Shown piece by piece: positions 6,595-61,346 of a stretch of DNA of 64,000 nucleotides (position 1 is its first letter; each line of letters opens with the position of its first letter). Both the position numbers and the translations under genes were made by a program. The stretch lies in the NCBI GenBank assembly GCA_021234155.1, contig JAJEKV010000072.1, positions 861,918 to 925,917 of the forward strand, read 5' to 3'. Source of the stretch: Isoetes taiwanensis (taxonomy: Eukaryota > Streptophyta > Lycopodiopsida > Isoetales > Isoetaceae). The notes beneath the pieces are model-generated. The model was given only the letters and a program-made list of their open reading frames with translations, was not told the origin of the DNA and ran no database searches.

Positions 6595-6600
6595 TAGTGA

Positions 6601-6975: not shown

Positions 6976-9183
6976 TTTTGTGCACTTACTTAAATTTATG
7001 TTATGCTTATAACCAATGCGAATTCTTTGTGAATGTTTTATATAAATGGCATGTGCAAAGTTTTCTCCCGTGACTAAAGCCAAATTACAATTAAGAGGAA
7101 ATAATAATCAGTAACGAAGAAGTTGTCTATACAATTCAATATCTTGCATAATAAGAAGCAACAACTCTGCCCGTTATGGGGAGTGTTGAAAAGTAAGGAT
7201 GCAAACACAACTACTAAATTAAAGAAACAAAGGAGAAAAGAAAACTTGTTTCTTGTAGAATCTTAGCATAAATTCTAGTTGATTCTGCCCTCAGGCACGT
7301 GTAGCACAATTCAAAATGAAACATTGTGACATGGATATGCCACAATGCATCAGCATGCCATTAAGTCCAATATTTGGACTTTTTAAATATCCCTAATATT
7401 AGAATCTTCAAGAAGCTTCGCTATGCTCTTTCATTCCGGCTCCATTTTCGTTTTTTCTCTAAATTTATGAAAACTACATAAAAATATATCCCAAGGCTTT
7501 GAAAATAATATAATAAACTAAGAAATCTTCCAAAAATAAAGGTGTACCTTGTAGAGTAGGTGATTGTTAAGCCATGCCCTAGCTGGAACACAGTATGACA
7601 GGCAGTAAATGAAGCCACAGTAGCAAATCATGAACAAAAAGAGGAATATAGAAAGAAGAGTTTTACACACATATCATAATACCAAGTTGACATAGCCATA
7701 TATTTAAATTAAGGGCACACATATAGATTTCAAAAACAAACCAGATCTCTTAGCTCTTTTTGTTGATTCAACTCCTGAAAACATGTAACAAATCCATTAT
7801 TCGTATCCTGTACACATGGACCAACAATGTAGATCATTAGAACATTAATGTAGAAGAGCATTGGTAAGGACAATGCTAAATTGGGCCATGCAAGAGAAAT
7901 TGGTTCTTACCCTGAACATGTTGATAAGGACGCTAAATTCAGCCAAGATCTAAAGCATGCTCCAATATCAAAGTGGGAACACTTTTTTTTTAGTGATATT
8001 GATGGATCTACTTGTTGACTTATGATGCCGGGCATTAGTTGTGGACTTGTGCATGCATTTATGGCATATGCATTTGTGGAGTTGTGGACTTACTGATGTG
8101 ATGCAGTTCTGCCATAGCTGTTCTGTTTTCTGAAGCCTAAAAGGTTACAGTTACCTAAAGAGGGCAATTTAAGAATTTCTGCCTTTGGTCTCAGTACTCT
8201 AAACTGAGCAAGAAGAGGAATGAGCAAGAAGAGGAATCGCTACACTCCAAAGTATGTAGCATTGAGAGGCAATTTTTAACAGTGGTTATGATGGAGCTAT
8301 GGCAGATCTATGGTCATGTGTGTTATTTTATTTGTTCCTCAGGCTGGCTATATGCCAGTTTATGAGTCAAGACTGTCTGAGCTGTATAGGAAGATCTTCA
8401 TAGCTGAATTTAAATTCCTGGGACTGAGGCTTGGTTCATGCAGCCTTTAGAATTGTTGAGAAAATTGTACAGTGTAGCTTCGTAACTATGCAATCTTTAG
8501 GACCGTTGAGAGGATTGTACAGTGCCATGCAGTCTTTAGAACCCGTGAGAATATTCTACATTATAGCCTCGTAGCCATGTTAGGGTCAGTAAAACCAAAA
8601 ATCTAAAAGCAATATATTAGTGAATCTAAGTTAGAAGATGGCTCGCTCATACCAAGTTGCAGGTTGCCTCAAGGACTTCTTATAAATGCCTAAAACCAGT
8701 GTATTCAAACCTCCAAACTTATCTATCCTTTACGATAAGCTCCAACTCAAGAATAGGCTGGCCACCAATCTCTGCAAAAACCAGGAAAACACATAAGAAT
8801 TAAAGCTTCAAATTTCATACTAAGAGCTTCAAACTTCAAACTTCATACAAACAGAAACAGACCAAAGAGTATTTAGCTAAATATTTCGTAATGTAAACTG
8901 ATTATTCAAGAGAAAAGGAAGAAAGAGATATAACAACGAATAACAGCTGAAGCACAACCTGGTGATATTATTTTTAATTTGAGTTGTTAGGGTCTGAATG
9001 GCTGCCTTGCGAGCTTCGTTAATGCCTGTTTGGAGTAGACATGCATCTAAATTGTGGTAAGATTAAGAAAAAGATTCATCTTAGAATGATTCACAGTATA
9101 TAGTCACCTCAAGACTGCTCGAAACCTGAGCTGAATCATTAGGAACAAAATGGCTGCAGCATGTGATGCATCGTTGAACTGAC
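6976..9183. other. No secure gene; scattered exon-like pieces on minus strand
   Basis: About 2.2 kb with no secure gene. Two short minus-strand pieces look exon-like: one ending at about 7552 before a GTACAC donor, and one at about 8732-8775 after a TTTTTGCAG acceptor. They could be 3' exons of the gene upstream at 9.2-11.2 kb, but phase could not be checked. Confidence 0.25.
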
Positions 9184-11226
9184 CTGATTGTCAAATAAAG
9201 GAAAATGTGGCTGAGCTTGTTTAATCCAAATCGTTTTTGCCAAGGATGGGTCTTCGTGGCATAACCTATTCCATCAGAAAAAAAAGGTCAAAGAGAAAAT
9301 TCAAGCATCGTCTATGTTCTTACCTGTGTTCTTTGTGCGCATATACATGCATACCTTGATAAGACTGTAAAAATCCAGCTCCGGACCTCCCCTCCCCTGA
9401 TCCTTTTTCATCTGCACTGATTGGTAGACGATTCAAATACTGGAGGCCCTTTTCAAAAATTAACTTCTGAGAACACATTGGCTATGGCCGATTTGAAAAG
9501 ATATGTCCAACCTTGCTACTTCGTGCTCGCATTCAATAGCGGAGGTAGGAGAGGAAGACCATAGACGCATACGACGATAAGAGTGCCGCAGGGGAAAGAG
9601 GGAACGCCGCATGCGGCGTTACATGCGGCGTTCCGGGCGCAAATTTCAAAGCTATCCCAAAATAAAAAAGAAGATGTTATAATTATGTTCTTTTGGCATA
9701 AAGTTACTGTTATGTTCTTTGACATAAATGTATTGACAAATAACTGTTTATCTACTAAAAGACTACTTTACCTTATGTCGTCAACGAACTTGCTTCTAAA
9801 CATGCCCTAAACATAGCCTTTCCTAGTTCCAATTAATTGCTCTAGGATCATCCATTTTATTAAGATCATGAACTATGAGAAAGTATCAAAGAACAACACT
9901 ACTATGCATGCAAGACAAACATACGGGCAAGTCTGTAAAAATGATATGGTGTCCTTATAGCTTAAGAAATAAGTAGAGACTCACTGCCCATGGAATCATT
10001 TTGGAATAATACTATCAGTCAATTTGTGAAATAGGACATGTCTGAGCAGTTATAGTGCAGGCAGTCAAAAGATTATTCATCTCAATTTGAATCTCAATTT
10101 GAAACCCAAAGGAAAGAAAACATAGGTAAAAGACTAACAACCAAGAAAGAAGCCTCAAACTTAAAAAATAGCAAGTTACCTTGAATTCATGCATGTAGAG
10201 ATTAATTATAGAAAAGATTCTGCAGAAGATTTCCTTGCCGTAGAGCATTGCTTCGCTTTTTAAAGCTACGTCAATGTGCGGGAGCACTTCATACAACAGC
10301 TTCTTTCGAGATGAATAAGAAGAAATCTCCTGAATGGATTAGCTAGTTAGAGGCATCCTAATGCAAGACATGGAAAAAGAAATCAAAGCTTTGCATGCAT
10401 GTCTTCCATTTACTACCTGGCACGGGAACGAATCCATCATAATAAAACAATACAAATTGGCATGAATCCAGCCACACAGTCATATGGCTATATGGCACAT
10501 CAGCCTTTTGATCGTTCAAATATCTTCCCATTCTTCTGTATTGTCCTGTTGAGCGGCCTACAAAAAAATGCCTGTAATATGTAGAGGGCATAAAATGCAA
10601 TAGAATCTAGAGGATACTGAAGACCTTAGACAACATAAACAATTTTCTGACACCTCTAAGCACTGCAAGAGGAAGAAGCAATTTTAGATAGTTAAGAGGC
10701 TTGTGTGTCAATATCTGTGCCCCTTCACAAATCTTCCATAGTATGCTGCTTGCTACTTTACGTATCTGATAATATTGCATGTGAAAAGATCTGAGTTTCA
10801 GATACAAAGGCATTCAAAGTTTGCATGTGAAATATGTCACAGCTCACCTCCAATCGAACTTATCCACTGATCCTTGCACTGGCCCCTGCTTCTTGGCATC
10901 CAAAAAGGGCCCAGTTCCTGGTACGTTCTCACAGGTATCTTTGCTCTTCTGAACACCTTAAGAAATAGAATGCATAAATATGCTCTGGCATGAGGAACAA
11001 ACAAACAAATGTCTGGTAATACATTTTAAAAGACTTGACTTCTATAACAACACAGATTTGAAACCAGTAAGGAGCAATAGGGCAAATACCAATACAGAAA
11101 TCATGCTAGTAAATGGAATGTCATGGAAAGAACCTCGGCGATGATGACTTGCATAAATCGTGGCCCGCATGCTGAGATGTTGAAAGGATAAACTTCCTCT
11201 AGCCTCAAGCTAGAATCGTGGCGCAT
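9184..11226 (-). CDS. Unrecognised multi-exon protein gene (partial model)
   Basis: I do not recognise this protein. Exons are inferred from open frames bounded by GT-AG signals with matching phase. Exon 1, 11226-11134, starts ATG and encodes 31 residues (MRHDSSLRLEEVYPF...). Exon 2, 10948-10848, includes DAKKQGPVQGSVDKFDW. The next exon, from about 10793 to 10647, joins in phase and includes KVASSILWKICEGAQ and LKLLLPLAVLRGV. Another, 10329-10180, encodes 50 residues including LLYEVLPHIDVALKSEAMLY. A later exon, 9466-9355, includes EKGLQYLNRLPISADEKG, and 9265-9184 is weaker because two frames are open. The pieces look helical and soluble. Start, exon count and 3' end are uncertain; exons may be missing between 10.6 and 10.3 kb. 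It could be a working gene or an ageing copy. Confidence 0.4.
9601..9634. repeat. GC-rich perfect palindrome
   Basis: AACGCCGCATGCGGCGTT (9603-9620) is a perfect 18-bp palindrome. In addition 9601-9613 (GGAACGCCGCATG) pairs perfectly with 9622-9634, so the region could form either of two hairpins. It is isolated in A/T-rich DNA just upstream of an exon-like segment. Confidence 0.8.
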
Positions 11227-11413
11227 ATTAATCTAGCTAGGCATGCAACCTCCAACGCACAACAGGCTCGGTAAAAAAAAACAGGCTTGACGATCTTCCC
11301 CGAATAGATGTCGGACATGCATGATGAACCAAACCATAAGGAGTTTTTAGTTTTCGATTTCTGGTAATCGGAAACTTTATACGGGAACTAATAAACCTCA
11401 AAACCTTAGGAAA

Positions 11414-12200
11414 TTAGCTTAACAAAAATTCCAAAAAGTTTCTTACCAAACCGGAAAATCCAAATTTAAACAATAAGATAGCCTGTGCTTTTTTCCTGCT
11501 GACGCCAACTCCTAGCTTCCTAGACCTATCAGCTGCAGCAACAAAGGCAGCCCTAGCCCTAACATATGCGGGATCACGTAAGATATTAAACCCAGCTGTT
11601 CTTTTGCATGCTGAAGGAGTCTTTGATTCCTGGTTCTTCCTAAGAATCTTCCCTATTGCTTTCAGCAAAGAATTTAAACTACAACAAAAATACACAAACA
11701 TTAGAACCCTAACAGAACTTAAACAAAAATAAAAAAAAGTTACCTGCCAGCAGGAAACATGCTCCCATCCTTCTTCCTAACTTGTATCATAAATCGAACA
11801 AGCATCTCGTTCAGCTGATCATCAGGTATGTCCTCTTTGCAAAAGGTAAGTCGGAAGTTTTTTTAGCAAATCTCCTCCATCCATCAAACTTTGCCCTTGC
11901 CCAGTTTGTTTGCTTCTTAGACTTGTCCTTTCCCCCCGTATCAACATCTCTAAGCATCTCAACATCAATACCAGCATATTCTTTTGTATCCTTCTCCACT
12001 TCTTTATCCACAAAACCCTCACTAAACCATGGCTGCTTCTCTATATCTCTCAACAGATTTTCTACCTCTAACGGATCTGTCTCAGCAACAGCATTCTCGT
12101 CTTCTTCCAAACCATTATCATCCAACCAACAGATGATCCTCGACAAGTGTAAATGAGAAACTGCAACATGTATCAGAAACCCCTCTAGCAACATTAACAA
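11414..12200 (-). pseudogene. Crypton-like tyrosine recombinase, copy B (N-terminal part)
   Basis: N-terminal region of the same recombinase family. Exon 1 (to 11744) carries an acidic leader, then TNWARAKFDGWRRF, a frameshift, and DDQLNEMLVRFMIQVRKKDG followed by MFPAG. This is the 'F..W / L..L..F..EVRK.DG..YPP' signature of the DUF3504/Crypton N-terminal domain. A clean GT-AG intron (11743 to 11679) splits a serine codon. Exon 2 continues LNSLLKAIGKILRKNQ and a basic stretch and runs open to 11414. The catalytic C-terminal exons seen in copies A and C are absent, so the copy is 3'-truncated. The intron sits at exactly the same place as intron 2 of copy C. Confidence 0.7.
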
Positions 12201-12299
12201 CTAAAACCACTTCAATAAACCTTGCTTCCCCATTTCTCGCAGCAAAGAAGAAATGCGCAACAAGAAAAACTTGTTAGATAATAGAAACCTAACCTAAAA

Positions 12300-12560
12300 A
12301 CAGAACCTAAAATAGAACCTAAAAACAGAACCTAAAATAGAACTTACACTTCAAGGAAGCTCCCTATCTTGCTCGCAAAACTCGCCTATGTGCTAGGGAA
12401 CCCAAAAAACTCCAAAAACTCCCTATCTTGCTCGCAAAAACTCGCCTATGTGCTATCAGAAACTCCAAAATCTTGTGTATCTACCTCAAGAACGCGACCA
12501 GAACCTAAAAAAACTCGCGTATCTACCTCAAGAACGCGACCAGAACCTAAAAAAACAGAG
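12300..12560. repeat. Short tandem repeats in the 5' leader of copy B
   Basis: Three small duplications follow one another: GAACCTAAAAACAGAACCTA-type units (12300-12345), CTCCCTATCTTGCTCGCAAA plus CTCGCCTATGTGCTA (twice, 12360-12455), and a unit with CTACCTCAAGAACGCGACCA (twice, 12480-12555). They lie in the presumed 5' intron or leader of copy B. Confidence 0.75.
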
Positions 12561-12791
12561 TAAACATTAGTAACTTCTCAGATTAAATGAAAACTAGAAA
12601 TAAAACTAACTATTTACCTTACTTCGGCAGCGGCGCCTTCACCTAGAACAAAGAAAGAAGAAAAGATTAGAAAGAAACAAAAAAGAATGAAAAATCAGGA
12701 AGAAAACATCCCTAACGTCGTCAGGGCATGCCTCCTTACCATTCCTGCACAAATGGCGCCAACCAACATCCACGCGCCGCGACTACATGTC

Positions 12792-13050
12792 ACCTCCGCC
12801 ATCAAGAGGAGAGAAAAAAAAAAACCCGATCACGGGAATTTCCAAGTATTACGCGCCACCTTTTCGTGGTTTCCTACTGAAACCACTCAAAGGTGGATCG
12901 CCGCACTCCGCCATCGCCGGACCTCCGCCATCGCGAAGAGGAGAGAGAAAAAAAAAACCCAGTGCACGGAATTTCCAGGTGACAGTGTATTACGGCTGGG
13001 AGCCGCCACCTTTTCGTGGTTTCCGGCTGGAAACCACTCAAAGGTGGCGG
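12792..13050. repeat. Duplicated hairpin block, probable 5' terminal region of element B
   Basis: Two related units (12792-12896 and 12921-13047) share ACCTCCGCCATC, an A-run, GGAATTTCCA and a long hairpin. In unit 2 the arms 13002-13024 and 13029-13050 pair at about 19 of 22 positions around a 4-nt loop; unit 1 has the same hairpin at 12854-12896. Unit 2 carries 12968-12987, the exact inverted match of 1199-1218. Because it lies upstream of recombinase B and the other match lies downstream of recombinase A, these may be opposite ends of one element type. That is inference. Confidence 0.55.
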
Positions 13051-13236
13051 TTCCCTAGCACGTACTTAGCATCATATTTAGTTTGGAGTATAGGAATGTG
13101 TGGTCTGACCATTATTTGCAGCTGCCCCACAAAAATTTGCCTCCGAAAAACAATGGGAAATAAATTCATCTGATGAGACTCATATTTTACGGATGTCCAG
13201 CGATGAAGCAAGCGCGAGCTCTAGCTCCGGATAGCT

Positions 13237-15336
13237 GTGCGTCTCTCTTCCCATTTCACACGTACTTTATGTATGTCTTCACTGTTAAGAACAAGGGACC
13301 GTTTCATCACTTTCGGTGAAAAATATTGGACCCTTTTGCATCAGAAGCGCAGCTATGGCCTACCATCAGAGAAAGAAAGCGTTTTAAACAATGTAGCTAG
13401 ACTGTGCAACATTGGAAACCTGGAGGAAGCTGTAAATCAATTAGATCACAATGGAGTTGACGCAAATTTTAGTCTCTTCAGATCCTTACTGCGGGCCTGT
13501 GGTAATGTCAAAGCCTTGCAACAGGGTAGACAGATTCATAAGCTTATTTGTAAGAGCAAATTGCATGAGAAGACGATATTGATAAATCAGATCATTGAGA
13601 TGTATGGCAAGTGTGCGAGTCTGGATGATGCAAGGGCAGTATTTGACAATATGCATCAACGAAATGTATTTTCGTGGACTGCTATGATTGCAGCATATGC
13701 AGAAAATGGGCAAGAAAAGAAAGCTTTGCAACTCTGGCCCCAAATGCAGATGGAAGATGTGAAACCAGATAATGTCATCTTCATTATGATCTTGAAAGCT
13801 TGCTCTCATCCTTCAACTTTGGAGGAAGGTAGGTTGATCCATGCAAATATTCTGGAGGGTGGTCATGATTTTCATGTTGTAGTAGAAACCTCTCTTGTTA
13901 ATATGTATGCGAATTGTGGAAGCTTGGAAGATGCCTCAAGGATTTTTAAGAAAATGTCACTGAAAGATGCTGTAACTTGGAATACTATGATTGCAGCATT
14001 TTCTCACCATGGCCGTGAAAAAGAAGCACTAAATCTTTTTTGGCAAATGTTTCAGGTAGGCCTGCAGCCAACTCGGGTGACATTTGTTAATGTCCTTACT
14101 GCTTGTTCCTGTCAGATGGAAGGTAAGTTAATTCATGCTCATATTTTCTATTATAAAACTGAGTCAGATGTAGTCATCCTCTCCTCCCTAATCAACATGT
14201 ATGGAAATTGTGGGACTATTGAGAGTTCATTGAGGGTATTTGCAAAACTGCACCAAGGGGAGGTCACAGTGTGGAATGCAATGATCACAGCCCACATTCA
14301 CTGTGGACAGGCTAGGGAAGCTTTGTGTCTCTATAGACAAATGAGGTCTACATGCACAAAACCAAATAAAGTAACATTTATCACCATCCTTAGCGCATGT
14401 TGCTCAGCAGCAGTCAAAGCTGAGGGTAAGGTGATCCACGCCCACATCATAGATTGCGGGTTTGAATCTGATAATGTCATTGGTTCTGCCCTTCTTAACA
14501 TGTATGGGAAGTGTGAGAGCTTGGAAGATGGACGAAGGGTGTTTGAAGAAATGCCCAAACAAGATGTTATTTCATGGACTGCCATGATTGCAGCATATGC
14601 TCAGCATGATCAGGGTCAAGAAGCGCTTAAACTTTTCCAGCTAATGCAGATGCATTGCATATCCCCAAACAGGGTCACAATTGTGACCATTCTTGATGTC
14701 TGTGCTGATCTTGCAGCCTTGGAAGAAGGGACATCCATGTATGCTTACATAACTAATAATGGATTTGATCTGGATGTTGTCATAGGTACAGCTCTTGTGA
14801 ATCTGTATGGGAAGTGTGGCTGTTTGGATGTTGCACGCGACATCTTCAATAAACTACCCTGGAGAAACTTGTTCACATGGAATGCCATGATATCTGCATA
14901 TGCCCAGTATGGGTGGACTGAGGATTCCTTGGAGCTATTTAATCAAATGCACCTTGATCATATCATGCCAGATGAGATTAGCTTCATTAGCATCCTCTCA
15001 GGATGCAGCCATGTAGGCCTAGGATACAAGGGTTTTCACTGGTTTGTCTCAATGAATCAAGGTTACAACGTTACAGCAACTGAGCAACATTATGGCTGTC
15101 TGATTGACCTTCTTGGGCGAACAGGATGGCTTGATGAAGCAGAAGACTTTGTCAACAAAATGCCAATTCCACCTGATGTTGTAGCGTGGAGGGCCTTACT
15201 TGGTGCATGCAATGTCCACGGAGAAATGAGGCGTGGACAGCAAGCTGCAAAACAGGTTATAAAGTTGGATCCTTGTGATGCTGGTGCATACGTTTTGCTA
15301 TCAAACATCTACCTGACAGGCACAATGGTTTACTAA
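13237..15336 (+). CDS. PLS-class pentatricopeptide repeat protein, E-type, no DYW
   Basis: A 699-codon intronless ORF. PPR proteins of this class bind organelle RNA, and PLS/E/DYW members specify C-to-U editing or RNA processing. The N-terminus (about 45 residues, rich in R, S, L and F and poor in acids) looks like an organelle-targeting peptide. Tandem P, L and S motifs follow from about residue 75, with hallmark phrases LINQIIEMYGKCASLDDARA, NVFSWTAMIAAYAENGQEKK and GSALLNMYGKCESLEDGRRV, about six PLS triplets in all. The end carries the LLGRTGWLDEAEDFV motif and the start of an E motif (GAYVLLSNIY), then stops abruptly after LTGTMVY. E+ and DYW domains, the deaminase, are absent. It may be genuinely short, act with a separate DYW partner, or be truncated. 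The ATG was chosen as the most upstream in frame; a second Met lies 12 residues in. Confidence 0.85.
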   Translation: MRLSSHFTRTLCMSSLLRTRDRFITFGEKYWTLLHQKRSYGLPSEKESVLNNVARLCNIGNLEEAVNQLDHNGVDANFSLFRSLLRACGNVKALQQGRQIHKLICKSKLHEKTILINQIIEMYGKCASLDDARAVFDNMHQRNVFSWTAMIAAYAENGQEKKALQLWPQMQMEDVKPDNVIFIMILKACSHPSTLEEGRLIHANILEGGHDFHVVVETSLVNMYANCGSLEDASRIFKKMSLKDAVTWNTMIAAFSHHGREKEALNLFWQMFQVGLQPTRVTFVNVLTACSCQMEGKLIHAHIFYYKTESDVVILSSLINMYGNCGTIESSLRVFAKLHQGEVTVWNAMITAHIHCGQAREALCLYRQMRSTCTKPNKVTFITILSACCSAAVKAEGKVIHAHIIDCGFESDNVIGSALLNMYGKCESLEDGRRVFEEMPKQDVISWTAMIAAYAQHDQGQEALKLFQLMQMHCISPNRVTIVTILDVCADLAALEEGTSMYAYITNNGFDLDVVIGTALVNLYGKCGCLDVARDIFNKLPWRNLFTWNAMISAYAQYGWTEDSLELFNQMHLDHIMPDEISFISILSGCSHVGLGYKGFHWFVSMNQGYNVTATEQHYGCLIDLLGRTGWLDEAEDFVNKMPIPPDVVAWRALLGACNVHGEMRRGQQAAKQVIKLDPCDAGAYVLLSNIYLTGTMVY

Positions 15337-17827: not shown

Positions 17828-18266
17828 TGATTGCTCTCCCATGGAAAGCCTTAAGATTTTCCATGGAAACCCTTTCGAATTTCCTTGGAAACCCTTCTAA
17901 TTTTCCAGGGAAGCTTTCAATAAAACCAGGAAGGATTTCCACGGAAACCCTTCCGATTTTCCATGGAAACCCTTCCAAATTTTCAACTTTTGAAATTAGA
18001 AAGGGTTTCCATGGAAGATGGGAAGGGTTTCCACTTTGGAAAATCGGAAGGGTTTCCCGGAAAAACAAGAAGGGTTTCCATGACATTATTTTATTTTTAG
18101 TATATTTACACGCGTGAGCCTTTATGGATCACGCTTATCGACACGAACGCCTTCCATTAAAGCGGCACGTCCATCAAGTATACGTCACCCCAAAATTCAA
18201 GTTTTGAGTGGAAACTCTTCCTGTTTTCCAATGCCAAGGAAACCCTTCCCGATTTCCTTGCATGAT
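17828..18266. repeat. Inverted minisatellite of GGAAACCCTTCC units
   Basis: About six 20-24 bp units built on GGAAACCCTTCC-GATTTTCC run to about 17985. From about 17995 the same motif appears in the opposite sense (GGAAGGGTTTCC) four times to 18085, forming a large imperfect palindrome. A further forward piece at 18206-18266 and opposite-sense units at 23465-23540 show that the LINE at 18280-23464 landed inside this array. Small open frames here are repeat artefacts. Confidence 0.8.
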
Positions 18267-18279
18267 GGAAATTAGGAAG

Positions 18280-19329
18280 AGCAGAAGTGAGATTAAGAAA
18301 GGGATTTTAGATCTTTCTGGTATCAGGGATTCCTCGGCCTCAGACTTATACTCTAAAAAGGGGATCCTTATTCATTTTCCTGACAAATCCCCTTCTCTTG
18401 GCGAGGTTAAATTCTGGATCACTAAGATTCAGAAAGTTCCGATCCTTTCCATTCTCAAAATAGACAACAAAACCTTCCAAATTTTGTGCTCTGACGAGAA
18501 TAGTGTTGGGTCTATTCTTAGAAAAAGACTGGATAATATTGGAAATAAGGATTTCTTTATCATGAGATGGATCCCGATCTATATCCCAGGTAATTATGAT
18601 TTAGTCTCCACCTCTACCTGGGTAACTTATCCCAATTTACCTCCTGGTCTCTGGACTAAATCCCACCTGCAAGCTATTTCTGAAAACCTGGGGGAAGTCA
18701 TCAGCATAAATATTCCCCAAACCAACTTCCCCTCAGTGTGCATTTCAAAGAGGATCAGATCTGAGTGGGGAAGGGAAATTACAGTCAAGATTTCTGAGCA
18801 CACGATTTTCAACCTTAAAATTAATTATTCAAAAATGCCTAAAAAGGATATGGATAAGGGCAAAGGAACAAATTCGGAGGAAAAGGGGAACAGATATACC
18901 CCTCCCCTTATTATTAGACAAGAATGGAGACCCAAGAATACTGTTGTGCAGAATATGGATCCAAAGGGGGAAAGCAGCAACAGCAATCAGGGTATTAAGA
19001 ATGATGAGGACCAGGTGAGTTATGAAGGTAATTTCAAGATTGACAAAAATTGGAATCTCATCTTTAAAAATATTGACCTTTCATTCAAAATTTCTCCGGG
19101 ATTTATGACTGTTTCCATCCCTCAGACTGCTCCTCTCATTTTTTATGATGATACCAATACTAACAAAGAGGAGGAGCATGTGAGTGATAATGAGAATGAA
19201 GAAATGAATTGGCAGCAGGTCACATATAAAAAAAGAGGAAGGGGCCAAAAAAAGATTTATTCTGGACCTATCAGGGTAAGCCTAAGAAAGGCAGCTATTC
19301 AATCTAAGATAGCTAAGAATATTCAATAA
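18280..19329 (+). CDS. LINE ORF1 protein (DUF4283-like, N-terminally truncated)
   Basis: The open frame covers about 349 residues inside the element and extends upstream into the flanking minisatellite, where the apparent start codons (18262, 18265) are found. Residues corresponding to FWITKIQKVPILSILKIDNK, FIMRWIPIYIPG and LPPGLWTKSHLQAISENLGE match the layout of the RRM-like DUF4283 domain of plant LINE ORF1 proteins, which act as RNA-binding chaperones. No CCHC knuckle is visible, unlike the third LINE. The C-terminal half is acidic then basic (KKRGRGQKK). The stop at 19329 lies 8 nt before the ORF2 start at 19338, a tight bicistronic layout. Confidence 0.7.
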   Translation, partial: SRSEIKKGILDLSGIRDSSASDLYSKKGILIHFPDKSPSLGEVKFWITKIQKVPILSILKIDNKTFQILCSDENSVGSILRKRLDNIGNKDFFIMRWIPIYIPGNYDLVSTSTWVTYPNLPPGLWTKSHLQAISENLGEVISINIPQTNFPSVCISKRIRSEWGREITVKISEHTIFNLKINYSKMPKKDMDKGKGTNSEEKGNRYTPPLIIRQEWRPKNTVVQNMDPKGESSNSNQGIKNDEDQVSYEGNFKIDKNWNLIFKNIDLSFKISPGFMTVSIPQTAPLIFYDDTNTNKEEEHVSDNENEEMNWQQVTYKKRGRGQKKIYSGPIRVSLRKAAIQSKIAKNIQ

Positions 19330-19337
19330 AGTTTTAA

Positions 19338-22300
19338 ATGTTAGGAACCATCAAGATGATTACTTGGAATCTCCAAGGCATTAATAATAGCATCAAAAGG
19401 GACAGAATTAAAGTTTGTTTATCTAACCTCAGCCCTGACATTCTTTTTATCCAGGAACATAAGATTCATGATCCCAATCATGAAAGGATTATTTCTAATA
19501 TTCTTCCTCCTAATTATAATATTTGGTCTATTGTTGCTAACAACTCGTCTGCAGGAATAGCCATTGCTTGGAGTCAAAAAATAAATTTGGAAGATATTTA
19601 TATGATTAATGATACCAATGGTAGATGGCAGACTCTTGTTGGTAGAATAAAATCGTGCAAGATAGCCTTTACCAATGTCTATTCTTTTCATGAACCTTCT
19701 GAAAGATCCTTGATGTGGAGCAGAATTAATAGCAGCCTGAACAACTTGGATGTGGAGGATTGTGTCATAGGTGGAGATTTCAATATGGTTACAGACAGTT
19801 TTATGAGGAATAGAAACTTTAGGAATCTTCTTCCTCAGGAGAGATGTGCATGGGATAATCTTCTCTCTTCCCATAATTTAACTTTGGCGGAACCAAGCCT
19901 CAAGCTTTTAGGTTAATTACGACCATAGAGTAGACCCCATTCTTTGTTTACATGATAGGTACTACGTGAGTGAGAATTTGTGGAATAGTAGCAGCAGAGT
20001 CGACAACCTTGAAGGATATACTATCTCGGATCACTACCCCCCGCAGATTACCATTTCAGGGGAGGGCATGCCAAGAAGAGAAAAGCCTATTTCAAAATGA
20101 ACATTAGCCTGATGGATAATGATGATTTTATGACTAAGTTGGGGGAAATTATCAATGGAAATCCTATGCCTACTGGAAGTACAGGATGGATGTATTGGTG
20201 GATAGATATTGCCAAAAAAATTAAATGTTGGCTCAAAGAATGGGGCAAGAATATTTATATTCAAAACAAAGCTCATCTTCAGAATTTAAGGCAAAGCATT
20301 ATTACAGCAAGTGATGAGCAGAAAGGGGAGATAAAAAAGAAAATTGAGATTGAAGAGATAAAGATTGCAAAAGGATGGAAATTAAAGGCCAAAATAAAAG
20401 AGTTAAAGGAGGATGAGAGATGCAATTCAAAGTACTTTTTCAACAAAGCCCGATATAGAGTCAAGAGGAACCATATTTATGAAGTCAAGGTGGATGATAA
20501 TGTAATCTCTGATGACAAGGATCTCAAACAAGCTGCAGTCGACCACTTTAAGAAGCTTATGGGATCCAACATGGACTCCACTCCCATGGCTATGGAAGAA
20601 TTTATTTGTCTAAATAAAAAGGTTAATGATGATCAAAACTCATATCTGACTAAACCCTTTGTGAATAGTGAGCTTCTGCAGGTTGTCAAGAATATGGAAA
20701 ATGGGAAGACCCCTGGCCCTGATGGCCTCCCAGCAGAATTTTTTAAGAAGACTTGGCCCTTGCTTGGAGATTGCATTACCAAAATAGCCAATGAGTTTAG
20801 GGGAGACTAATCTGATCACGGATGCAAGAATCAATACCAGTTTCATTGCCTTAATTCCTAAGATTGAATCTCCCAATACCTTTTCGGATTACAGGCCGAT
20901 TTCTCTCTCTAATGTTATCTATAAAATCATTTGAGGAGCTATTGCTTTGAGACTTAAAACCATCTTGGATCTCATTATTAGTAGTTCTCAATCAGCCTAC
21001 CTCAAAGATAGGTTCATTTTAGACAATGTGGTAACAGCTATTTTGGGACTTCAATGGGCAAAAGACTCCAACCAGGATGTGGCCCTCCTAAAACTCGACA
21101 TTACCAAGGCATTCGATCTGATGAAGTTGGAATTTCTTATTTAGATGTTGCAGGGCTCTAGGTTTCAGCAATGAAAGTATTCAAATATTCGAGGCTATTT
21201 TGTACAACTCAAGATCAGCTGTACTCATTAATGGTGAATGCAACCCTTTCTTTACAATTCAGAGGGGAGTAAAACAAGGTTGCCCCCTTGCCCCTTTCCT
21301 GTTTCTGATTATCATGGAAGCCCTCCATTGTAGGTTGGATGTTGCTAAAAATACTAACCTTATTAAAGGTGCGAGACTTCTGATAATTCTCGAGGCGATC
21401 AAATTCTGAATGGGCATTTTGCAGATGATACCTTTATCCTAATGTCTATGGATGAGAATTCCATTATGAATGTTCAGAGAATCCTTGGAGAATTTGGTGA
21501 GGCTTCAGGATGTAAAATAAATCATGCCAAGTCAGCAATTCAAGCAAGGGATCAAGGAAAGGGTGAGGTGATGGCTGTAACCATGGGATGTAAGTATAAC
21601 TCTCCTAACACTAGCTCAAAGATCCTGGGTATCCCATTTGCAATCAGAAGCAATGCTTCGGACTTATGGGGAGGTATAGTTGAAAAATTCTACAAAAAGG
21701 TTGACACTCTGAACTCTAAATATCTCTCTAAGAATGGAAGGGCAGTCATAGCTAATTTTATGATTTCTTCTTCTCATGTGTATCAATCTTCAGTTATTCT
21801 TGCTCCAAAAAAGATTGCTAACAAATTGCAGGGAATTATTGGTAGATTTATTGCCTGTGGGCAGAACAGGAGGTGCTGGCACCCGGTCTCAATGAAAGAA
21901 TGCTGCAAATCTAAGAGTAATGGAGGACTGGGAACAATCAATATTGAGAAGCAGGGGATGGCATTGGCTGCCAAGTACTTTTATAAGGCCTGTTATAATT
22001 CCATCAAGCACCCTATTTCTATCCTGATTAGGCACTATATTGGAAAATGCCATCCTTATGGGTGGAGATCTTTAAAGATGGAGCTTCCCCATTCTATCTT
22101 TTTTCTTTTTACTGTCCCTGCATCCACCCCAGGTATTATCAAGAAGTGGATCAAGGCTTGGGATCAAATTAAGGGAATGTATACTTGGAAAGAAGGGCTT
22201 TCCATGGATCAAACCATATTCTGGAATCCAGCTATCCTGCTCAACAATCCTAACCTCTGTCTGGCCTGCCACTTTCCTGATCAGGCCAAGTTATGGAAGA

Positions 22301-23247
22301 GTAAGGGAGTCATTTTTATAAGGGATCTTTTTGATGCTAATGGAATTATACCTTTTGACAGGTCCACTTTGGTTAATGAAGGAGTGCAGACCAGGACCCT
22401 CTATGATAATGTTCTTAATGCCATCATGAATAATTACTGGACTCATGAGGATAACTCTTGGCTAAATGAAGGAAAGGAAGGTTATGCTGTTAGAAGAGCA
22501 TACAAGTATCTCATGAGGGGAGAAGGAGTTACTATTCATATAAAATGGGATGTTCAGCCGGAAAGATGCATCAAGAATCTGAATTTCATGTGGAAAAGTC
22601 CCATTAACCCAAAGATTAAGTCATTCATCTGGCAACTTTGGCATAGAGCCTTGGCTACTAACTCGAAAAAATATAAATTATCTATGGCCAGTTCTGATAT
22701 CTGTGAAAGATGTCTTGGAGCAAAAGAGGATGAAAATCATCTTTTTAGAGGATGTCTTTGGTCAAAATGGATTTTAGAGCTTGCCTCGGGAATTCTGGGA
22801 TATGATCTCATTCATCTAAGTGAGAAGGATTTTTTCATGCCAGAGAATCCCAAGGATTGGAGAATCTTTGTCCTCCTATGGAGGATATGGAAGGGCAGGA
22901 ATTCTTTTATCTTTAATGGTGAAATTGTTCCTCCCGAAGGAATAATCAAACAGTTCCAATTTGATGTTAAGTGGATTCAAGAGATTAATGGATGACTTCA
23001 TTATTGCAGGTACTCTATTTCTGCTGGTGCGCAAACTCAAGTGGAGGAAGATGGACCTGAATGCGAACAACGAATGGATCAGAACTACAATATAAGGAGA
23101 GAGCTAATTTGCCAAGCAAAGGATAGCAGAGGCAGGTTCAACATGGCCAAGGCAAAAGCATGCATGTGCGTTTACTGCACATTCCACGAGAAGACGAAGG
23201 GGAGGGCAAGGAAGACCAGGAACTATCACCTGAGATCCTATCACTGA
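19338..23247 (+). pseudogene. LINE ORF2: endonuclease, reverse transcriptase, Cys-rich tail
   Basis: Order of domains: APE-type endonuclease from 19338 (ITWNLQGINN, FIQEHKI, GGDFNM, with TISDHYPP after a frameshift near 19910); reverse transcriptase (GKTPGPDGLPAEFF at about 20700; LKLDITKAFD; RGVKQGCPLAPFLF; catalytic FADD at about 21420); thumb and connection from 21442; zf-RVT-like Cys/His segment (CERCLGAKEDENHLFRGC); and a C-terminal tail (RRELICQAKDSRGRFNM, then ACMCVYCTFH and KTRNYHLRS) ending at 23247. At least five frame changes or stops (about 19910, 20808, 20933, 21144, 21409) plus a stop at 22993 disable it. The last piece stays open and is matched by the minus-strand copy. Confidence 0.85.
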
Positions 23248-34375: not shown

Positions 34376-36289
34376 GTAAGTATGGGTGCCTTCTTCAGCT
34401 TTTATTGTTTGCCTCCATAGTTTTCAACTGCATTTCCTTGCGGGATATTTCAATCTCATGATAATTTCTGCAGCAACACATGATGATCGAGAAACAGCAA
34501 TCTAGTTTTTTCTTATTAGACTGTCAGATATGGCAGACATGGCTGAATGTTCTGAAATGTCTTTTGCCCTTGTACCTGGAGTAGTTTGTGAGATGGAAAG
34601 TCCTGTTCTGGCAAACGAATGTCAGAGTATTCTTGCAGAGTATGCTATTGAGGATGATAATAGTGATGAAGAAGGACGAAAAGGAGAATTGGATTCCGTT
34701 AGATGAGGATTTGCTGTCTCAAGCACTAAATGGCGGTCTGAACCGTTCAGGAAGTGTAAATAGTTGGGCGAGGAGAAGATTTGATGAATGGAGGAATGAT
34801 TTCGGATTAGGGACCAATATTCCAGTGGAGAAATTAGACTTGAGGGAGCTTAATTGGATGTTAACAAGATTTATGCTTCAGGTATTTAATTTATTATGTC
34901 TTTTTTTTTTAATTTGCTTTTTTTTTTTTTGTTCATTTCTTTTATATTTGTTATGCTTTTGTTTTCAGGCGAAGAAGAAGAATGGAAAAGTATATCCTCC
35001 TGGAACCTGAATATTTTTCGTTTTTGTGTTTTTTCTATTTTCTTATTACTCTATTTAATACCTAAATTTTCTTGTGTTAGGTTGAATTCTCTGCTGAAAG
35101 ACATTGGCAAAATCGTACGAAGAGAAAGGCAACGCATACAAGGGGAAACTGGTATTAGGAATATTCCTTTTGATATTTTGACCGATCCAATATTGTCCCA
35201 GAGTCGAGAGGCACAAGGCTCCTGTGATTACTTTTGCTGTTGAAAAGGACATTCTTGATGATTTAGATCATCAAATCACACACCCTACAGGGTGTATTAA
35301 AAAGCTCATGTATTGCATATTGACTTGTTTTGGTATGCGGGGAGACAAAAAGTTACACAATCTAAAGGACTGTGATATGGCCTTGGAGGTTGATGATGTT
35401 GGGCAATTAGTGAAGTCGGGAGAGAGGCTAAGTAAGAACTTTAATCCTAGTGTTACTAAGTACAATGATGTGGACATACGAAAAGGATTTTGTCCTTACT
35501 TACAAGCAATATGTACGGCATCTACCTGCCAAAGAAAATGAGAAAGAGTCACGCCATTTCTTCTTGCAGCCTGCTCCTCGTTATAAAACTAATGTAAGTT
35601 ACTCTAGTTTCTGTTTTTTGAATTTTTAGTAATTCAATTTTTTGCTATTTGATTTCTATTATTTTGTTTTTGGTATTTCGTTTGTTATCTAATTTCCGTT
35701 ATCTAATCTAGGCATGGTATGCGTCACGCCTGTTGGAAAAAATTCGATTTCTAAATGGTTGAACACAATGGTTGCGATAGTGCATCCTAAGACTTGGATA
35801 TGTAATAAGTCTGGCAGGGTGCCTTTAGTTTCCCGTCTTTCGCCTGCGAGTGTGCCTTCTAATGTGGGCATGGCCATTACTGGTCATAAGAGTACTCCGG
35901 CTTATGAAATGTGAATCTTTCTAGTATTCTACTTCTTTTTGTCGTTACTTGTTCTTTATTTTCTTACTATTGTTTACAGGTATGATCGGACACGAGAATG
36001 CAAAATGAACGTGTGTATGGATCTGATTAGCCAGCCTATTAATGATGATGGAACTATGCGAGCGTACAAAGATGTGATATCTGGTATTTTCTTATGTTTA
36101 TTCATCTTTTTCACGTTTGTAATTTCTATAATAATGTAAATTATCTAAATTAGCTCTAATATATTGTTGTAATTTTTAGGTGAAGTTGCAAAGCATAATC
36201 TGGTAGGGAATACTTCTAGGAAACCTTTGCAGGAGTTTGATGTTCTTCGTGCCTCAGAATCTTGTGGAAATATCGACGTAGCAGTATAA
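34376..36289 (+). pseudogene. Crypton-like tyrosine recombinase, copy C (six exons, frameshifted)
   Basis: The most complete copy. A 5'-leader intron (CAG|GTAAGT at 34375/34376 to ag at 34519) precedes ATG 34530. Exons: 34530-34881, 34969-35006, 35081-35593, 35712-35910, 35980-36083, 36180-36289. Landmarks: acidic N-terminus; SWARRRFDEWRNDFG and LNWMLTRFMLQ|AKKKNGKVYPPG (DUF3504 N-domain); LNSLLKDIGKIVRRERQR; box I Arg in CFGMRGDKKLHNLKD; TYKQYVRHLPAKEN; ISKWL; K-x-x-R in ICNKSGRVP; His in ITGHKST; nucleophile Tyr in YDRTRECKMN, nine residues after that His and split off by an intron. Damage: frame changes near 34680, 35205, 35484 and 35730, and the exon 2 donor reads CT instead of GT. Tyrosine recombinases cut and rejoin DNA through the Tyr. 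This copy can no longer make a full protein. Confidence 0.78.
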
Positions 36290-38700: not shown

Positions 38701-39179
38701 GATCAAAAAGTACATATCTTATTGGATCCGGGTAGGGAGAACTAAAATTAACTTCTATTCCTTTATCAAGTGATGTAGAATTGTCTTCTGCTTTCTTGAA
38801 TGTTGCCCCTCCGCCTTCTTCATTTATGGTCAAGGACGTTGAATTTCAATTGCAGGGATACGTCTATAACGTTCTTTCATGGTTTCTGACCTTGGAGATA
38901 TGGATATTATTCTAGGCATGCCATGGCATAGGGTATCAGTCCTCTTATATATTGGAAGGCGGGAATTGTTATGTTATCCTTGGAAGGGGGCAAAAAGACC
39001 TTCAAGTTTGTGAAGGATGATATTGTTTCCCCAATTCCAACAGTTTCTATTGTACAGTTTAAACGTTTGGCAATGAAAACTCATTTTGTGTATTTGGTGG
39101 TTTTGCATCCTAAGTCTGGTGTATCCCCATTAAATGAGCATCAAACTGTCTTTTTGCATTATTATGATGATGTCTTTTC

Positions 39180-40440
39180 AATGAAATTCCACAAACTTTG
39201 CCACCCCAACGTATGGAGGACCACATGATTGATCTTCTTCCTGGGAAAAAACCTCCTAATCAAACTCCTTATCAGAGAATGCATGGCCAACAAGTTGAGA
39301 TTAGGCGCCAACTTGATGAGTTACTTCAAGCTGAATTGATTCGCCATAGTTCTTCACATTTTGGTGCTCCTGTCTTGTTGGTTAAGAAAAAAGATAATTC
39401 CTGGCACATGTGTATAGATTATCGCGCTTTGAATAAGATAACCATAAAGAATCGATTTCCTATACCAAGGGCGGATGATTTGTTTGATCAACTCCAAGGT
39501 GCCACAGTTTTTAGCCATCTTGATCTTAAGTCAGGGTATTGGCAACTTAAGGTTGCATCTGAAGATGTTCATAAGACTGTGTTTTAGACAACCTTTGGAC
39601 ATTATGAGTTTTTAGTCATGCCATTTGGACTTACAAATGCTGCTTTTGCGAGGCTAATGGGGCGGATATTTGAAGATATGCATGGCGCTTATGTTGTCGT
39701 TTTCTTTGATGACATATTGGTTTTTAGTAAGTCCGAGGAAGATCATTACTTGCTTTTGCGGGAGGTTTTTCGTCGGTCAAAGGAGGAGTCTATTACTCTT
39801 AATCCTAAGAAAAGTATCCTTTTTCAATCAGAAATTGAATATTTGGGTCATATTGTTTGCATTGAGGGTCTTAAAGTTGATCCCAGTAAGGTACAAGCAA
39901 TTGTAGATTGGCAGTACCTACTTTCGGTTGTTGCATTGCGTTCCTTTGTGGGCTTATGCAGTTATTATAGGAAGTTTGTACAGAATTTTGCTCGTTTAAC
40001 TTCAGATTTATAAAGATGTTCCTTTCCAATGGAATCATAATCATCAGTTTGCTTTCCAAGTTTTAAGAAATGCCATGGTTAATCCTCCTGTTTTGCGTTT
40101 GCCACAATTTGGTCTCCCTTATTTGTTATGTATTGATGCAAGTGTTATGGCTTTGGGCACAGTTTTGATGCAGGATGGTCATCCTATTGCTTATGAAAAT
40201 CTGAAGTTTTCTGACACGAGTAGATATAGTGTTTATGATAAAGAATTTTTGGCTGTCATTCATGTTTTGAAAGTGTGGCGACACTATCTTTTAGGGTCGA
40301 CTATGCATATTTTGACTGATCACCAAAGGATTAGGCACATTGTTTCATAGAAAACATTCTCGAAAGGGCAATTGAAGTGGGTTAGAGTACAAAAGACCAA
40401 GATGCTCAATTTTTTTTCCATTGAATTTTGTTATCAGAGT
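39180..40440 (+). pseudogene. Gypsy reverse transcriptase and RNase H
   Basis: The RT begins after [19 protein letters not shown] and shows [54 protein letters not shown] and the catalytic VVFFDDILVFS. The usual residue before DD is I or V, so FFDD is unusual. TAG at 39586 stands where family members have CAG (KTVF-Q-TTFGHYEF). A break at 40013 precedes RNase H (LLCIDASVMALGTVLMQDG, SVYDKEFLAVI, ILTDH), which stops at 40350 and fades by 40440. Upstream, DIILGMPWH-like and LLDPGRE pieces at 38690-38940 are protease remnants. Confidence 0.85.
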
Positions 40441-43519: not shown

Positions 43520-46930
<3,411 letters not shown>

Positions 46931-55640: not shown

Positions 55641-57520
55641 CTTGTTCACTGTTTTGGCCTCCTAGTCTTCCTCTGTTTCTGGCTCCTCAACTTCGAGCTT
55701 AAAGACATAGGTCACTTGCTCCTTCTTTATGTATCTAAGTAACTTCTTACTAGACATGCATTGCATGATTGGGGTGACTTCTTTACCTGTTATCTCAATG
55801 ACTTGGCCATTTAGTGTCGTCAAGGTGACTTTCCGCTTCCCACAACCAATCACAGCTCCAGCCGGGCCAAGTTATTCCATGCCTATGATCAAGTCATACT
55901 TGCCGATGTTCATCACTTCTGCTCCCATTTCAACGTTGATACCTGCAAGTCTATATCGAAGTTGCTCCTTTTTTATGTTGTGTGTCGGATTGCCCCACAG
56001 GTCTAAGCTTAAACTTCAAAGGCTTCAGCTTCAGCAACTCTACCATCCTTGGTGAAGCAAAATTATTGGTGCTCCCCGTGTCTATCAACACTATGAAGGA
56101 CTTGGCTTTGGCTTTCCTGGATGTAGTCGCAAGCACCTTCTTCATCGTTCTCCTGTCTCCCATCCTCCTAGCTCTGCTAATGCCACGTTCATCACAAAGG
56201 GACAGTTGTGTGTCCGATGTCCCAGTTATAAGCAACTGAAGCACAACTGCTTTTCAATACATTCTTGTCTCTTCTCCTTCAGAATGGACTGCAAGAACTG
56301 CTTCATTACCTTGGAGTAGTTTGAACCACTCGCTTGCTCTTTGTTCTTGAAACTGACCTGCTTCTTGTCCTGCTTTTCAAAATTTGCATTTCCTTGCTTT
56401 CCATAGTTTGCATTGTACTGAGGTATAGCAGCTTTTGGGCTTGTTGCTCTTGGACTATAGCTTCCTATAGCTTTCCCCTTGTCCTGATAGTACTGCTACT
56501 TTTGTCCACTGCCTTGGGGACCTATTCCTTGTAAGCTCACGGCCTTGGGTTCTGTTTCTGACACTGTTCTGGGTTGATGGCTATGGCAAGCTTCATGATA
56601 TCCTCATTCAAGCCTTTGATGTACCTCTCTTCTGCATGTCTTTCGCTCAACTTTGGCACGTAGAGTCTCAGCCTCATAAACTCTTCGGTGTACTTCTGCA
56701 CCGTCTTGTAAAATTGCTGCATCATATGGCACTTGTGTTCCCTCGGCACGTAGTGACACTTAAATGCCTTGGAGAACTTCTTGAATCTGCAACTATCTCT
56801 GCTCAACCCATGGGCCGTGGCATAGCCTTTCGACCAAATCCTGGCCGCTCCCTTGAGGTTGGCTATCGCTACTCTACCCTTGTCCTTATATTTCATACTA
56901 TAAGCATTTCTGTACTCTCTCATCTCGTCCAACCAAGCCTCGGCTTCCATCCCTGACCTGTTATCTCCTGAGAACTGTTCTAGCTTCTTGGCTTTCCACA
57001 CATTGCTCAGTGCGGAGTCAACTTTCTTTTGATAGTCGGCCTCGTTCTTGCCTCTATCATGGTTGGGACCCTCCCAGTGGTCCTGCTGATCGTTATCCTA
57101 CTCCTCTGATTCTGAGCCGGAGTCAGAACTGATGTCAGAGAAATTTTTACTGGGGGATCTCCTTCTCATGTTTCTCTTATTTGCCTTGTCTGCTCTGCCA
57201 ATAGGTGTTTGGGGTAGCTGGACGTTCTGGTCTGGTGCAATTACTGCCCTTCCTGCCAGCAAGGCTCTTATTTCTTGCATATCCAATCTCATATGGGATA
57301 TCTCCTCTTATGGGATTGGTGCCTTGAACACTTGGAATAGGTTCCTTGGTTGAAATTGTGTTGCGGGTGTTTTCTCTTCCTGAGGGTGTTGGTCTTGCTC
57401 AACATTCCTGGGTGCTCTAGCTGCATACACATTAGATTGCACTCTTATGATTAGCTTTTGTTTGTTATTGCATTGGTTTTTGATGATATAGTTGTGGGGA
57501 CAAAAGATATCAAAGAACAT
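55640..57520 (-). mobile_element. Ty3/gypsy gag-protease remnant
   Basis: Minus-strand order: Glu/Ser-rich leader (QEEKTPATQFQPRNLFQVF; SPSKNFSDISSDSGSESEE); gag domain in 57001-56537 (AKKLEQFSGDNRSGMEAEAW, YVPREHKCHMMQQFY, KYTEEFMRLRLYVPKLSERH); a CCHC knuckle near 56230 (CFSCL*LGHRTHNC, with a stop inside); and aspartic protease (SFIVLIDTGSTNNFAS, D-T-G active site) at about 56110. A further 63-codon piece ends at 55662. Reverse transcriptase, integrase and LTRs are absent. The gag differs from that of the element at 37.5 kb, so it is another lineage. Confidence 0.8.
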
Positions 57521-58908: not shown

Positions 58909-61330
58909 GTGATGGAACTTAAAAGCGAAAATTACCGTAAATTTCTCTCCATTCTTCACGCCTTTGCTGATTTCGTGCCCTCTGATCGTCCCGAACTCCT
59001 TAAACAGTTAAGATCTTTCCATGAAAACTCAAAAAATTTATTTTTCTTTGGAAATTTTGCTAACTCTCTGAATGGACAGTCTGCAATGGATCCTCTGTCC
59101 TTCAAAGTTCCTTGCTGGGATAATTTGTCTAAAGATCCAGATTATAGATGTCAATTGCCAAGATTGGACCCTGCCCATGATGTTTCTCTTCCCTACGGTG
59201 AAAGGAGATCAACTCAGAAGAAACACTCGGATGAATCCCTCAACAAGGCCCCCGGGAATGTTCGACCCTTCAAACCCCCCTTCAGTGCCAAAAAGATCAA
59301 TATTTTCAATGGTATTTCTTTGGATCTCCCTTCTCTGTATGCAAAGTTAAATTCCTTTCATGATTCTGCTGTAATTGTAAAGGTCAATAAGCATGGGATC
59401 AAATTGGATAAACTCTGGTCCTTCTATCTGAACCTTCATAAAGGCATTCTGATCAATGCTGTCTATTGGCTTCAGTCACCCTACATCATGATTGAATGTG
59501 GAAGCAAAAGATCTGCTAATTTCTTTCTCAATCACGGTCCCTTGAATCTTTTCGATTATCCTTTCTCAAATGGGACCCTAAATTTGAAATTGCTAACTTA
59601 AACAATCTCTATGTGGCCTCTACTACTCTTCATGGCCTAAATCCCATCTATTGGAATGAGGATTGTCTGAAAATGCTCTTTGACTCTGTTGGATCTTACT
59701 TTGGTACAGAATATTCCCCTTATAGACCTTCTCGATCTTTTGTTCAACTTGACATCTCAAAAGATATCCCTCTTCAAATCCCCTTCCTATATGTCTTTGG
59801 TCAAAAAGCCTATCTACCTTTAAGATGGTCGGGATTGCCACCTCATTGCCAAATTTGTAAGGTCATGCACTTCTGATATGAATCTTGCAAGGAGAAATCA
59901 GTTATTTTGTCGAGAGCCAACCCGCCAATTGCTGTCGTGGTGCCAAGTCAACCAAAGAACAGTCAATCGAGTCGAAGTCAGCGGTGTTTTTTGAAACTCA
60001 AAAGGCTCAGTCCTTGACCGAGTCTCCCCAAAGATTACCAATGATCCTGATGTACCCAGTATCATTTCTAAAGACAATAGATTCGAGCAAACTAAGGTTA
60101 ATGGAAGTTACAAAAGAATCCAAATGAAGAAAAGGTTAAAAGAGGCCCAGATTCAGAAGGAAGAGACAGTTAATACTAAGATTAATGTTGCTTCTAGAAA
60201 GATTTCTAGCAAAGAAAAAGATTCATCTCAACTAGTCAAGGTGCTGCAAAATCATGAGAATGCAGCAAAAAATGTATGTTTGGATAAGAATAAAGCAATC
60301 TTCCTAAACAGAATCATTGTGGATGCCAAGAGCCTAGGGAAAAAAAGGAGTCATTTGCAGATCCTTTTAATCCCTATATGAGTAAGAGTGGTCTATTAGA
60401 CAAGAAAATCAAACATAGTAAAGAATTGAAGCAAGTCAACTTTGATAATGAGCAAGAATTGAGGCTGAAATAAACCCTTTGGATACTATAGTGGAAGTTG
60501 TCCCTGCTTCTCCTCCAGCTAGGGCAGAATTGGACAAAGAGATCAATCATATAAAGGAGACTACTGCCTTAGGTACATTGCAACACAAGGAGTTGCAGAA
60601 TACCACCAATCAAGTTACTGGTATCAAGTCAATTTCAGGTATTAGCTAAGCTTAATTCTGAACTTAATATGGATTTATTGTTGATCAACACCCTTACTGC
60701 CAAACCTAAGCATTTTAAACCACCTTTTATTGACCTCTCTCCAGCCACTGATTTAAACCCCCTTCCCTCCTCTACTATTGCATCTGAAATTGCTGAACAG
60801 ATAGCTTCATTGCAAGAAGGACTCAGTTCACAAGCTCAACAAGTCTTCCATTGGAACCTTATGGATGATGAGTTTGTCCAAGATACTCCAGGAAGGGAAA
60901 GTGCTACATCTAAGGAAATCAATCAAGCAAAGATTGTAGTTTTGCAGGTTGAAGAAACACAAAACATGGTTGCAGATAATACAGGTCATGACTCATCTCT
61001 CTTACTTTGTGATAATTCTAATATAGATAAGTCTAAAAATTCTAATATTGTTTATTTCCCTCATCTCCTAGAAATAAGATGTTTGAATTTATCCCTGGTG
61101 GAATTTCGGATGTTAGTGTGATGTCTTTCTTTCTGATAATTCCTCTCTTGAGTTAGGCATGAAACCAAAGTCATATGGAGCTAGGGTCAAAAGTAAATCC
61201 AAAAAGGGTGATCCATCCCTAACTGATCTCACTAATTTGCACAACACTCTTGCTGCCAATAAGGGGTAAAAATAAAAAAGGAAAAGGGAAAAAAAGATCT
61301 GTCAGACTCTAGCTCCCCTTGTCTTTCTCT
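58909..61330 (+). pseudogene. LINE copy 3, ORF1 (DUF4283 plus CCHC knuckle)
   Basis: The first frame, 58909-59601 (230 codons), starts MELKSENYRKFLSILHAFAD and carries VVKVNKHGIKLDKLWSFYLN-type text, then LQSPYIMIECGSKRSANFFL, the RNA-binding DUF4283 region. After a frameshift, 59613-59876 reads LNPIYWNEDCLKMLFDSVGS and LPPHCQICKVMHF*YESC, a CCHC_4-type zinc knuckle with a TGA inside. Lys/Glu/Ser-rich segments in broken frames continue to about 61120. Sequence before 58909, back to about 58250, may be the 5' leader. The knuckle distinguishes this LINE from copy 1. Confidence 0.7.
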
Positions 61331-61346
61331 TTCCTTTTCTTTCCCT

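Follow-up and report, generated by a model that had tools for sequence, protein, structure and literature searches.

The window, that is, the whole 64-kb stretch of Isoetes taiwanensis DNA that was analysed, contains two elements with a gene predicted to encode a tyrosine recombinase (YR). Element 1, carrying gene copy 1, lies on the forward strand, where the gene extends from an ATG at 34530 to a TAA stop at 36287-36289, and element 2, carrying copy 2, lies on the reverse strand between TACGTGCTAGGG (13064) and GGTTTACGT (1191), ends that are common to genomic copies. The original prediction had counted three copies in the window, but there are two elements only, element 2 being split by a Helitron-like insertion. 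The features are as follows.

34530-36289, +, coding part of element 1, decayed gene of predicted Crypton-like YR (profile match, catalytic columns, PF12012)
34675-34881, +, exon piece, N-terminal core-binding domain
34882-34968, +, intron A, GT-AG, 87 bp
34969-35006, +, exon piece, KKKNGKVYPPG
35007-35080, +, intron B, 74 bp, donor CT, CT...AG borders
35081-35593, +, exon with two frame changes, box I Arg and β-hairpin Lys (ERLSKN)
35338-35340, +, box I Arg codon (GMRGDKKL)
35594-35711, +, intron C, GT-AG, 118 bp
35712-35910, +, exon with one frame change, NKSGR (K-x-x-R) and TGHKST (His)
35911-35979, +, intron D, GT-AG, 69 bp
35980-36083, +, exon, candidate nucleophile Tyr (YDRTRE)
36084-36179, +, intron E, GT-AG, 96 bp
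36180-36289, +, last exon, TAA at its end
1191-13064, -, element 2 end to end, insertion included (3,461 bp without it), ends matching genomic copies
11479-12200, -, 5' half of the element 2 gene (originally the third copy), N-domain, frame change near 11835
11743-11679, -, element 2 intron B, GT-AG
3066-11478, -, Helitron-like insertion, 8,413 bp, 5' TC, 3' hairpin plus CTAG, between A and T
2230-3065, -, 3' half of the element 2 gene (originally the second copy), two in-frame stops
2423-2351, -, element 2 intron D, GT-AG

Architecture of the two elements and their surroundings

The motifs quoted in the original prediction (N-domain, GMRGDKKL, NKSGR and TGHKST) were found in copy 1 where it had placed them: W-A-R..F..W and L..F..Q.KKK.G..YPPG are present within 34675-35006, and NKSGR and TGHKST within 35723-35908. 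The Tyr is indeed nine residues past the His, a spacing that spans an intron. That the recombinase gene has introns of its own was borne out, and the description of six exons with GT-AG borders throughout holds for introns A, C, D and E but fails at intron B, with its CT...AG borders. A translatable spliced gene at 34376-36289, in contrast, was not recovered: the reading frame shifts near 34.7, 35.2, 35.47 and 35.72 kb, and 16 residues of the copy 2 alignment have no counterpart near 35.2 kb. Copy 1 is a relic; its frame disruptions may stem partly from decay and partly from assembly error. No terminal motifs of the copy-2 family were detected near element 1, the ends of which were not found.

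The two minus-strand gene halves of element 2 are complementary. The N-terminal half ends with ...CAGGCTA (11479) and the C-terminal half starts with TTCC (3065), and joining them across the insertion yields an open frame of 209 residues. Uninterrupted genomic copies read across the same point as KAQAIPFNSE(K/R)D or a variant, thus confirming the join independently, and the alignment of the window with the genomic copy L037 is interrupted exactly at the insertion point. A giant intron was considered and rejected, since no GT donor borders the 8.4 kb and the uninterrupted copies are continuous there. The 3' half carries the box I Arg, the Lys, NKSGR, a degraded TWH in place of TGH and the Tyr exon, with a raw His-Tyr distance of eight rather than nine. 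Both window elements are dead.

Helitrons insert between A and T and are distinguished by a 5' TC and a 3' hairpin plus CTRR. The insertion in element 2 displays a 5' TC, a 3' hairpin followed by CTAG and an A/T site, and a second, nested hairpin-CTAG end occurs within it at 6601-6631, with none expected in 100 shuffles; the fold energies of the two hairpins are -7.3 and -15.9 kcal/mol. Inspection by eye of its frames of at least 60 aa revealed no recognisable Rep/helicase, so the insertion would be non-autonomous.

A pentatricopeptide repeat (PPR) open reading frame at 13225-15336 (703 aa, at least eight PPR_2 stretches plus an E motif) starts about 160 bp past the left end of element 2. It is followed by LINE pieces at 18208-22995, which comprise, in several frames, DUF4283 (18208-19329), an endonuclease, the end of RVT_1 and zf-RVT. 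Further LINE-type pieces lie at 45508-46170 (-; RVT_1, 84.9 bits) and 61263-63123 (+; endonuclease plus the start of RVT_1), and pieces of LTR retrotransposons at 39171-40013 (+; RVT_1, 66.8 bits at 39588-40013) and 56537-57097 (-; Retrotrans_gag, 37.0 bits). No tRNA genes were identified in the 64-kb window. PPR genes with an E motif and DUF4283 LINEs are typical of plants, and their location between the two elements supports the vascular-plant host that had been proposed from the sequence.

Relationship to DUF3504 and Crypton recombinases

The PF12012 profile matched the joined exons of copy 1 (E 4.3e-5, 24.0 bits) and joined copy 2 (E 3.9e-4, 20.9 bits), both below the 29.7-bit cut-off, and the QRICH1 domain matched more weakly (E 0.1 and 0.019, respectively). 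Copies 1 and 2 are 42% identical. A protein search with joined copy 1 alone returned nothing at E ≤ 1e-3 among 1027 candidates. When a profile of the two copies was used, the sole protein at E ≤ 10 was P0001 (E 6e-20; 5052 candidates of 5.77 billion), which carries DUF3504, QRICH1 and Phage_integrase domains and, compared with solved structures, matches QRICH1 (E 1.1e-7) and IntI4 (E 1.2e-4). Addition of P0001 to the profile revealed 364 relatives at E ≤ 1e-5 (120 listed), and the named ones among the matches listed are animals (Gymnothorax, Patella). Searched against solved structures, the window profile retrieved three designed proteins only (E 0.04-0.45), taken as chance, and the NCBIfam and PHROGs profiles gave nothing convincing.

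An outside profile was constructed from 120 relatives, the best 120 of the 364. On this profile copy 2 scored 122.1 bits and copy 1 111.8 bits, whereas none of 1000 shuffles and two reversed sequences exceeded 7.6 bits. Six unjoined window frames matched it at E ≤ 0.005 (23.6, 21.5, 19.3, 14.1, 12.5 and 12.1 bits), and they lie in gene order on each strand. Catalytic positions are nearly invariant in the relatives (box I R in 120/120, β-hairpin K in 119/120, box II H in 117/120 and R in 114/120, box III H in 119/120 and Y in 118/120), and in the alignment the two window copies have R, K, K, R, H and Y at these columns. With a conservation threshold of 85%, 93 columns qualify, 33 of which are retained in copy 1 and 32 in copy 2. 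The window copies are distant relatives, predicted to encode a tyrosine recombinase related to DUF3504/Crypton YRs. The refuting checks proposed with the original prediction were run and did not refute it: the matches are recombinase/DUF3504 proteins with aligned catalytic columns, and the assignment to a Crypton/DUF3504-type YR is supported by outside-profile scores far above those of shuffled sequences.

Copies in the Isoetes genome

The assembly searched comprises 1,658,258,908 bases in 1110 contigs; the I. taiwanensis genome is described as 1658.30 Mb in 204 scaffolds plus 909 contigs (PMC8566536). The copy 2 protein gave at least 184 exon-level matches (115 of 2314 candidates scored), which supports the multi-copy lineage that had been anticipated from the window. 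The best 30 matches occupy 30 places on 25 contigs, the window among them; 12 loci were taken for detailed comparison, and seven of the contigs carrying examined copies exceed 10 Mb. Using L037 as reference, similarity stops at 7159-7163 in 10 of 12 comparisons (11 loci and the window copy), the exceptions being L036 (7143) and L039 (5440). It starts at 3534-3539 in five of the 12 and later, in a variable stretch, in the rest. A mismatch-tolerant search for the end motifs located both ends in 8/12 loci as well as in the window copy; of the other four loci, two have the left end only and two the right end only. The left end reads YAY-GTGCTAGGGAACCG and the right end GGTTTACG, each with variants. 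Inverted repeats lie near the ends (GGTTTCC-GGCT-GGAAACC and GGAAATTC-GAG-GAATTTCC), and in L037 the terminal 28 bp recur in inverted orientation (93%) 130 bp inward from the left end.

Eight complete genomic elements measure 2,887-3,627 bp and, together with element 2 of the window, are 77.7-97.8% identical, and the 1-kb flanks of complete elements have nothing in common. Introns occupy matching positions across the copies. When complete, an element of the copy-2 family measures about 3.5 kb and has one intron-containing gene, and its copies are dispersed and repeated, with fixed ends. The longest word common to both ends is 5 bp in four, 4 bp in two and 3 bp in three of nine copies. Such words average 4.1 bp, versus 3.9 bp for ends taken from different copies, and no signal of terminal direct repeats or of a target duplication stands out from this background. 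In L040, L041 and L042 an extra frame of 153-158 aa, beginning LVLVGYLEVAGF, is found near the element end on the strand of the gene.

These structures bear on the possibility that the family is a YR retrotransposon of DIRS or Ngaro type, or a fragment of one. Such elements encode YRs too, and DIRS elements are present in Viridiplantae (PMC4157794). However, the longest frame in the eight complete elements is 302 aa, leaving no room for a reverse transcriptase, so that elements of 2.9-3.6 kb have no frame long enough for reverse transcriptase plus RNase H; three antisense frames of element 2 matched no Pfam family; the gene retains its introns; and DIRS and Ngaro YRs are reported not to match DUF3504 (PMC3212892). 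A retrotransposon origin is very unlikely, and a DNA transposon is preferred.

Window copies are saturated at synonymous sites, and selection was therefore tested on genomic copies (12 loci; exon 3-4 frame in 10, at least 120 codons in seven). The recombinase gene of the copy-2 family was under past purifying selection, with dN/dS of 0.21-0.49 in 18 of 21 pairs (129-165 codons). The remaining three pairs, formed by L044, L045 and L046, display dS ≤ 0.009 although they occupy three separate loci, indicating recent movement. L045 and L046 have an uninterrupted N-terminal exon and carry NKSGR plus TGH in one frame, while L044 has stops and a shifted frame in the N-terminal exon/NKSGR-TGH region.

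Boxes II and III are readable in one frame in 17 of the best 30 loci, and all 17 keep K-x-x-R and TGH. With a box II pattern that permitted H, K, R, Y, Q or N, Lys was found in 17/17 readable loci, in both window copies and in the L002 locus described below, compared with His in 117/120 relatives. This replacement means that recombinase activity is not assured. Lys does occur at this position in other relatives of the recombinase fold, and the predicted activity of an enzyme with a box II Lys is plausible.

The PF12012 search of the genome identified two places over the cut-off, L001 and L002, and no match in 14 control genomes. The L002 model has nine exons separated by eight GT-AG introns and encodes 724 aa uninterrupted by stops. 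It scores 30.9 bits with PF12012, 25.1 bits with Phage_integrase (E 1.8e-5, cut-off 27.1) and 81.9 bits on the outside profile, where the best of 500 shuffles plus one reversed sequence reached 3.1. N-K-x-x-R is present, and a Tyr follows the His at a distance of nine residues. L001 contains seven stops within its PF12012 match. An inverted copy, L004 (C606:38000-47900; 89.5% identical, rich in indels), adjoins L002, and this inverted repeat is possibly an assembly fold-back.

With few matches, this second family (L001, L002) could contain a domesticated gene. Extended to the whole, such a reading would make the sequences a family of domesticated host genes with DUF3504, comparable to ZMYM or QRICH1, and not a transposon. 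Splicing, purifying selection and the uninterrupted nine-exon gene of L002 are compatible with it, but at least 184 exon-level matches, with the best 30 at 30 places on 25 contigs, sharp common ends between unrelated flanks, near-identical copies at three loci and catalytic residues that are kept, whereas animal DUF3504 genes have lost them (PMC3212892), render it very unlikely and argue for a mobile element.

A tree of 54 rows, 51 of them drawn from the 120 relatives, unites the three Isoetes sequences in a single group (100/100), and their branches are very long (Iso_f2 8.07). All of these relatives were obtained through P0001, so the tree provides no placement among CryptonA, F, I and S. 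The animal identity of the named relatives (Gymnothorax, Patella) would suit contamination, or else a recent horizontal transfer with an animal or fungal donor. Against this stand copies on many contigs, seven of the examined ones over 10 Mb, the plant-type genes between the window elements and the grouping of the Isoetes sequences on long branches, and we regard contamination and a recent transfer as highly improbable; an old horizontal transfer may have occurred.

Proposed mechanism and comparison with known systems

Together, the data make it very probable that the window gene belongs, in decayed form, to a lineage of Crypton-like DNA transposons carried by a lycophyte. The gene product is predicted, from homology, the catalytic columns and the fold of a homologue, to be a Cre-fold tyrosine recombinase with a core-binding and a catalytic domain (R, K, K-x-x-R, H, Y). 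By analogy with the family, the recombinase would bind the inverted repeats near both element ends, Tyr-mediated strand exchange would excise the element, probably as a circle, and the element would be reinserted elsewhere, leaving no long target duplication. Known Cryptons are likewise proposed to pass through a circle (PMC3212892). We lean, with less assurance, towards lycophytes holding a separate, recently active Crypton group, level with A, F, I and S and characterised by introns, a fixed box II Lys, YR-type ends with nearby inverted repeats and a high copy number, plus a distant second family with an uninterrupted nine-exon gene.

The original view that land plants have no established Crypton family stands in part. 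In the open-licence PMC literature, covered by titles and the starts of abstracts and by passages of papers including PMC11630846, PMC10541799 and PMC7353026, no sequence-level account of a land-plant Crypton was found, but a table in PMC4438587 lists Crypton among the superfamilies present in all groups studied. In Dracaena, 24 Crypton fragments totalling 1,719 bp are reported (PMC6294377), and PMC3212892 includes a Chlamydomonas sequence in its tree and notes a DUF3504 protein in the mitochondrion of a green alga. Cryptons are known in sequence detail from fungi, stramenopiles and animals, and a recently mobile vascular-plant lineage with a high copy number would widen this host range. It would offer a plant system for testing YR-driven transposition (circles, choice of ends, gene splicing) and a possible source of YR-derived plant genes. 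The fixed Lys in the H-x-x-R box is a natural variant of a well-studied active site.

The Isoetes lineage most resembles Cryptons, especially animal CryptonA and CryptonI (Kojima and Jurka 2011, PMC3212892), in having a DUF3504-type YR as recognisable product, multiple copies and a catalytic R-R-H-Y, and in lacking both retroelement genes and inverted repeats at the very termini. It differs from them in its land-plant host, its introns and the box II Lys in place of His, and its identity to P0001 is about 23-25%. Terminal direct repeats of 4-6 bp are described for fungal and oomycete Crypton groups and none for animals (PMC3212892), and in the Isoetes copies no such repeat stands out above the background of mismatched ends. 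Cre, Xer, integron and Tn1549 integrases are more remote, with 10-12% identity to Cre chains, and the Isoetes gene is spliced and eukaryotic. DIRS, Ngaro and PAT retrotransposons share a tyrosine recombinase, whereas the complete Isoetes elements have no reverse transcriptase. ZMYM2/3/4, QRICH1, WOC, KIAA1958 and KCTD1 contain the same DUF3504/QRICH1 domains as the Isoetes family; in contrast with DUF3504 host genes, described as having lost the catalytic residues (PMC3212892), the Isoetes family is mobile and retains them.
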